Assembly (NCBI GenBank): GCA_020722885.1
Contig: DYJZ01000004.1
Span: 1 to 49,324 of the forward strand
Reading direction: 5' to 3'
Length of the DNA stretch: 49,324 nucleotides
From: Thermoanaerobaculum aquaticum
Lineage (GTDB): Bacteria; Acidobacteriota; UBA4820
Shown here: in pieces, positions 8,635 through 29,940 of the stretch
How the letters are laid out: each line of letters begins with the position of its first letter
Numbering within the stretch: the first letter of the stretch is position 1
Program-made: the position numbers and the translations under genes
The notes under the pieces: generated by a model
What the model was told of the DNA's origin: nothing
The model's input: only the letters and a program-made list of their open reading frames with translations
Database searches by the model: none

Positions 8635-8791
8635 GTGCATTGATTTTAATATGTTAAGGTTGAAGATATTTTTTTATTTCTTTAAACACATCTGTCCAAA
8701 ATAAATTTTGACAGAACCATCTAAGAAGTCAAGAGGAAAAATATCAAGACTATTTAGAAATACTCCGTTGTGAGTGCTCACTAACCGTGTT

Positions 8792-8962
8792 ATTGCGAGT
8801 GCTTTTTCGGAGCCCTGTCTTGCGAAGCAATCTCCCTCTTTAAGACCCAACGCAGTCATTGCGAGTGCTACTTCGTAGTCCCCACTTACGAAGCAATTTT
8901 CCACTTTGAATTTTACGCAGTCATTGCGAATTCTACTTCGAGGCATTCTCCCGTGAAGCAAT
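8792..8962 (+). repeat. Three tandem ~66-bp units, each starting ATTGCGA and ending GAAGCAAT
   Basis: Units start at 8792, 8858 and 8923. Each opens with ATTGCGA and closes with GAAGCAAT, so the ends are inverted complements and each unit can fold back. Two related units occur in the intact element on the opposite strand (about 29500-29630). The sequence family is reminiscent of the ATTGCGA/GAAGCAAT palindromic repeats seen in other bacterial genomes. Confidence 0.75.
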
Positions 8963-9168
8963 CTTCCTCTTCCCAAACAAAGGAAGATCACTTCGTTTGC
9001 CATCCCTCGAAGCACCCCTCGTGATGACAATTATGGACTAGTAACAAAGGAAGATTACTTCGTCTGCGGATATCGCGCAGTGTTATTTTTATTAACTGTC
9101 AAGACTATTTAGAAATGTCCCCTAAACTAACTAACTAAAAATGTTCTGTCAACAGGTTGATTAGAAGA

Positions 9169-9203: not shown

Positions 9204-9314
9204 ACCTTTTCTGAACACCCGCAGAGCTGAAATTGACTTCCATTTTGAGGCCATTTCTAATCAGTTTAAAATAGGACATTATTATGTAGTTTTGACAAAA
9301 AAGAACTGTAAAAT

Positions 9315-29105: not shown

Positions 29106-29134
29106 ATTATACTCCAAATATTTAATACTGGTAA
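29106..29134 (-). promoter_or_regulatory. Promoter of the TPR lipoprotein, -35 box inside the target duplication
   Basis: On the minus strand TTACCA (29134-29129) and a perfect TATAAT (29111-29106) are 17 bases apart, followed by the GGAGG site and ATG at 29087. The -35 hexamer lies within the 9-bp direct repeat that flanks the mobile element, so the insertion sits immediately upstream of this promoter. Confidence 0.6.
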
Positions 29135-29136
29135 GT

Positions 29137-29746
29137 CACTGCTGTTGAGGATAATTTGAAAGTGGAAACGGAACCATGAAAAATTGAGGGTTCTGGACGA
29201 GGTTTTTGGAGGCTTGAAAACGAGGCTCACTGTTTTTAGGGCTGTATATGTCATTATGCTCTCCAATTAGTTCTCAAAAAGGCTCGGCTGATAGGTTTCG
29301 GGTTCAATGGGTGGTGTTTAAAAAAAAACCTGTCGAACAATTTCCATAAATCCCCTGTCAAAGCTATATGATAATTTCCTCTCTTAAACTAATTAGAAAT
29401 GTTCTTTAAAATGGCAGTGGAAAAACCGCAAAAAGATTAAATAATTTTTGCAAACCTCCATTGAACCACCCCTTTAAGGCTTTCCGTTTCGGCTTTGTGA
29501 GAGAGGAAGATTGCTTCGGGGGGCTTTCCTTCGAAGGAGCGCTTGCAATGACTGCATTGTTTTTTAAAGAGGGAGATTGCTTCGTAAGAGAAGGCTTCAA
29601 AGGGGCACTCGCAATGACAATTTTAGAGAGGGGCTCGCAATGACACGGTTAGTGAGCACTCGCAACGGAGTGTTTCTCAATAGTCTTGACATTTTTCTTC
29701 TTGACTTCTTAGATGGTTCTGTCAAAATTTATTTTGGACATATGTG
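29137..29746. mobile_element. Intact 610-bp MITE-like insertion with 9-bp target duplication
   Basis: The perfect direct repeat CTGGTAAGT lies at 29128-29136 and 29747-29755. The enclosed DNA is the element: its left half (29137-29462) is the reverse complement of copy A1 (1-307) and its right half (29600-29746) of copy B1 (8687-8840). Homology with those copies stops exactly at the two duplication boundaries. The ends, read inward, are CACTGCTGTTGAGG and CACATATGTCCAAAA: imperfect inverted repeats sharing CAC, TGT and ATAA positions. There is no transposase ORF; short track ORFs here are artefacts. It must move in trans, if at all. It holds two ATTGCGA/GAAGCAAT palindromic units. Confidence 0.8.
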
Positions 29747-29843
29747 CTGGTAAGTGTATTAAAACAAATCGGAAAATGGTTTTCAGTAACTTCATTAAAT
29801 TACCTTATTCCAGAAAATTTCAGATAATATATTCAAACGAGAT

Positions 29844-29872: not shown

Positions 29873-29940
29873 GAACTCTATGCGTCTTTGTGTCTAAATA
29901 ATGAAATATTGAAGGAAAGGTTTTTTTGAGGGGTACAAAA

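Follow-up and report, generated by a model that had tools for sequence, protein, structure and literature searches.

The 610-bp segment at positions 29137–29746 of the window (the whole of contig C87, 49,324 bp, from the 107-contig draft assembly of the host genome, 1,903,546 bases long and 91% complete) raises the question of what kind of mobile element it is and which enzyme carried it there. A preliminary description had taken it for an undescribed-looking, MITE-like element moved in trans by an unknown transposase that makes 9-bp duplications. As judged from sequence comparison, its non-autonomous nature and 9-bp duplications, and with them a probable movement in trans, are well supported by many copies, their differing repeats and an autonomous relative. 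On the contrary, neither "undescribed" nor "unknown" is supported, because the ends, the 9-bp duplication and leftover N- and C-terminal codons point to an IS4-family (DUF4372-type) transposase. We consider it very probable that the element is a MITE, namely an internally deleted derivative of an IS4-family IS of the DUF4372 + DDE_Tnp_1 type, moved in trans.

The 610-bp element and its copies in the host genome

The element, which lies on the forward strand and belongs to the larger, palindrome-bearing class of its family, is adjoined without gap by a perfect 9-bp direct repeat, CTGGTAAGT, read directly at 29128–29136 on the left and at 29747–29755 on the right, just as first described. Its termini read CAC, and the imperfect inverted repeats starting with these letters were confirmed, being approximately 10 bp long in the family (CACTGCTGTC / CACATCTGTC; 7–8/10 in the consensus), with extra changes at both ends of the 610-bp copy. 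Rfam gave a sub-threshold match only, and as a single strand the sequence did not fold better than its shuffled versions (z −0.19).

Searching the 610-bp sequence against its own genome retrieved 64 matching stretches, full-length copies at 78–87% identity among them, and the right-end sequence CTGTCCAARATAAATTYTGACA occurred 65 times with at most 3 mismatches (0 for the reversed control). Thirty-two copies, 123–670 bp in length and with both ends in common, could be paired by their right and left ends; several right ends stayed unpaired, either at contig ends or by loss of the left end. The expectation that copies elsewhere would each carry a 9-bp repeat of their own was borne out in 20 of the paired copies (perfect in 16, with one mismatch in 4), the repeat length being exactly 9 and the duplicated sequence, 73% A+T, being different at every copy. 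Random re-pairing of the flanks gave none in 2000 shuffles. No clear duplication was seen in the other 12, which may be copies altered by age or recombination. Short length, lack of a functional transposase, dispersed copies, terminal inverted repeats and target-site duplications of constant length, the hallmarks of a MITE, are all found in this family.

Dispersal through ordinary segmental duplication or recombination, instead of transposition, has next to no probability. Duplications or one end are indeed missing in some copies, which indicates that recombination or decay acts on the family; however, the sites of the 20 copies are unrelated to one another, with the 9-bp duplications placed exactly at the common ends, and for most copies these duplications refute such an origin.

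Two further copies lie in the window, both on the reverse strand. The first, at 1–307, is cut by the contig start and is 84% identical to positions 1–326 of the element. The second, at 8687–9066, is a right-end-only remnant with a rearranged palindromic interior and no left end, followed by a short related stretch at 9236–9302; it was previously delimited at 8840, whereas it actually extends to about 9066. Both partial copies had been said to define the ends of the element jointly with the 610-bp copy. This stands for the left terminus of the copy at 1–307, a true boundary, and for the right boundary of the copy at 8687, but the other limit of the former is merely the contig edge, as for other copies in this draft genome. 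The IS-derived left parts of 26 longer copies show pairwise identities of 62–94% (median 85%), thus the family is not a fresh burst.

Some copies touch neighbouring features. On contig C10 of the host (G000), a 607-bp copy with a perfect 9-bp duplication (locus L002, 177–1538 and 1501–2107) overlaps the end of an ORF of 453 aa, at its 3' side, and provides its final codons and stop (...NVHKTAHLPKINFDRSI), so that the insertion changed the C-terminus of the protein. Three right termini, at C11:1–81 (L095), C67:15155 (L096) and C92:1–60 (L088), are fused to another repeat (CCCATCTTCTACAGTTGTG...), which is found also elsewhere, at a contig end, and is perhaps a second mobile element. In the window, a promoter-like TTGACT-16-CAAAAT at 29701–29728, a consensus match only, points outward from the right end of the 610-bp copy toward the aminotransferase gene at 29926.

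Transposase remnants and full-length relatives

As stated earlier, no ORF of transposase size is present; only N- and C-terminal remnants of the gene are found in the copies. In the 610-bp copy, the segment at 29137–29352 (reverse strand) derives from the parental IS4-family element, namely from its 3' end, comprising the terminal repeat CACTGCTGT..., a non-coding 3' region and the end of the transposase gene, and its 216 bp are 82% identical to the deletion derivative L097. It includes, at 29267–29296 on the same strand, a translated C-terminal remnant, TYQPSLFEN-stop, which recurs in many copies and resembles residues 356–395 of a full-length IS4 transposase; the codons upstream of it are frameshifted here. 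At the opposite end, 29693–29746 (reverse strand), the 54 bp reading inward CACATNTGTCCAAAATAAATTTTGACA carry the terminal repeat and are 89% identical to the 5' end of an IS in a member of the same family (G003), where the sequence runs on into a ribosome-binding site and ATGAACAA, with AAAGGAGGCTCAACC-ATGAACAA reached at a contig end.

Deletion intermediates connect these two segments. In the copies C22:10911 (461 bp, perfect 9-bp repeat GTTTTAGTA) and C74:12825 (469 bp), reading from the right terminus, the IS 5' end is followed by a ribosome-binding site and the first ≈37 codons (MNNYSSVLGQTLGLIPKAEFYE... and INKFSSVFGQILQLFPKAEFYE...), then the sequence jumps to the last ≈28 codons (FTYRDLWKSLDRFF...QPSLFEN) and ends at the left terminus. 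The N-terminal peptide of ≈37 codons matches PF14294 DUF4372, with which one type of IS4-family transposase begins (E 1.6e-5; with the C74 peptide, the match is just over the curated cut-off). Likewise, a full-length IS4 transposase used as query against the host genome matched residues 5–37 and 356–395 only, that is, the pieces of the gene retained in the copies; all host copies have lost the catalytic part.

Full-length relatives were found in other genomes. Genome G012, of the same order, holds an IS of 1387 bp coding for a 402-aa IS4 transposase and flanked by a perfect 9-bp repeat, GGTCCAAGT; its ends CACACCTGTCCAAGAT / CACTGCTGTCCAAGAT (in longer reading CACACCTGTCCAAGATGACA / CACTGCTGTCCAAGATAATC) are the same as those of the MITE family. 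This is the autonomous element, with the same ends around a transposase gene, that had been looked for, and it is a relative of the family, not its immediate parent. In G009, also of the same order, a 1325-bp element has the ends CACTGCTGTCCGG / CACTACTGTCCGG and the 9-bp repeat ACCTTGAGT. A 404-aa transposase lies between the left end CACTCTTGTCCAAAATAAATTT and the right end CACTGCTGTCCAAAATAA in G195, where the contig stops at the site of the duplication, which is unreadable. The transposases of G012 and G195 match NF033592 (IS4 family) above the cut-off, and show Y(2)R(3)E(6)K and D65D102E / D65D101E, with YREK and DDE spacings as described for the IS4 family (PMC2266710). In Table 1 of that work (De Palmenaer 2008), subgroup IS4Sa is given ends CA------T and duplications of 8–10 bp. 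The MITE ends CACTGCTGT / CACATCTGT and the 9-bp repeats agree with these values, and by ends and duplication length the family would be placed in an IS4Sa-like subgroup.

These evidences allow the transposase type to be named with good confidence as an IS4-family DDE transposase of DUF4372 + DDE_Tnp_1 organisation. In the proposed mechanism, internal deletion of an IS4-family IS would have left non-autonomous copies retaining both ends; the IS transposase, acting in trans, would recognise the two ends of ≈10–20 bp and cut the target with a 9-bp stagger, giving rise to the 9-bp duplications as copies spread around the genome. Mobilisation was presumably effected by the transposase of the family's own parent.

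That parent was not recovered: the host assembly contains neither an intact IS4 transposase of the DUF4372 type nor its catalytic core. This is what could be expected if the MITE had been moved by another, undescribed transposase family with, by coincidence, duplications of 9 bp, a reading that we regard as very unlikely and strongly disfavoured, since copies hold codons from both ends of an IS4 transposase gene and full-length IS4 elements of the same order share the ends and the 9-bp duplication. Returning to the IS4-derived origin, the lack of an intact parent in an assembly that is 91% complete suggests that the MITE family is probably old and orphaned; alternatively, the parent may lie in the unassembled part.

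Two candidates for an autonomous element were rejected. The sole DDE_Tnp_1 gene found in the host genome, coding for a 387-aa transposase (C105; L071:1258–2421), showed no MITE-like ends around it and does not match the remnants in sequence. On C7, the 1.25 kb that separate two right ends contain a MITE of 280 bp, a gene of HIT type and a right end that has diverged, but no transposase. An exact-pattern scan of GTDB genomes for the ends identified one other genome only, the Acidobacteriota isolate USDE_maxbin.008, with the IS at a contig end, and no match to the remnant peptide was found in plasmid records. In congeners the neighbourhood of the insertion lacks conserved synteny, so that no empty site could be identified.

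Length classes and REP-like palindromic units

The copies form a series of lengths. The smallest form, of 123 bp, consists of the ends alone; forms of ≈280 bp join the IS 5' leader to the 3' end; forms of 411–469 bp include the 461- and 469-bp copies, in which gene start and end are both retained. In the larger forms, mostly of 472–670 bp, only ≈54 bp of the leader are left, the gap being filled by REP-like palindromic units, whose number tracks the length of the element and explains a large part of the differences in length within this class. In the 610-bp copy the array of units (TCATTGCGAG ... GAAGCAATCT type) lies at 29494–29644, with direct repeats at spacings of 66 and 26, in agreement with the recurrence of internal palindromes noticed earlier.

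Of the unit core TCATTGCGAG the genome contains 212 occurrences, some of them outside the MITE (e.g., at 8840–9066 of the window), and a literature search by the letters of the unit gave only unrelated matches among those listed. Such palindromes inside the element, together with Y1_Tnp genes in a congener (G002) and in the family member G003, could speak for a REP/BIME-like family spread by RAYT (Y1 transposase), the 9-bp repeats being incidental. As an account of how the whole element moves, this is extremely unlikely: no Y1_Tnp (PF01797, RAYT) gene was matched in the host genome, and palindrome-free members of 123–290 bp keep the ends, three of them with a 9-bp duplication. Moreover, no RAYT elements are known that produce 9-bp duplications. 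The RAYT route may have been the origin of the palindromic units, not the mover of the element, which we continue to attribute to an IS4-family transposase. The REP-like units appear to have been acquired secondarily, not as part of the IS, and their number to have been altered by duplication or recombination. A more far-reaching reading, which we hold to be unlikely, would make the MITE the vehicle that captured and dispersed the REP-like units of this genome, IS4 ends and palindromes spreading together and the palindromes being retained for some function, for instance in ending transcripts or stabilising mRNA.

Comparison with known systems

The existence of the element is confirmed, but its kind is well known: it is a relic of an ordinary IS4-family transposon. 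Its recognition explains the high-copy repeats at which the assembly of an Acidobacteriota genome breaks, identifies the type of transposase responsible and provides clear deletion intermediates from IS to MITE; this is of value for annotation, while the mechanism itself is no surprise.

With IS4Sa-like members of the IS4 family (DUF4372 + DDE_Tnp_1; NF033592) it shares the CA ends, the T at position 9, the 9-bp duplication and the N- and C-terminal transposase remnants, and it differs from them in being devoid of a transposase, nearly the whole gene having been deleted, and in having gained palindromic units. The IS231-derived mobile cassettes of Bacillus cereus (MIC231, IS4 family), as far as they are cited in PMC2266710, are similarly non-autonomous, bear IS4-family ends and are moved in trans, but belong to another IS4 subgroup and host, the likeness being drawn from that citation and general knowledge rather than from an alignment. 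BrickBuilt of Porphyromonas gingivalis (PMC4596501) is likewise a MITE with repeated interior units and ends like those of a resident IS family; its ends, however, are IS5-like, its tandem repeats are 23 bp long, it has no remnant of a transposase and its duplications are inconsistent, whereas the family described here retains transposase codons and a constant 9-bp duplication.
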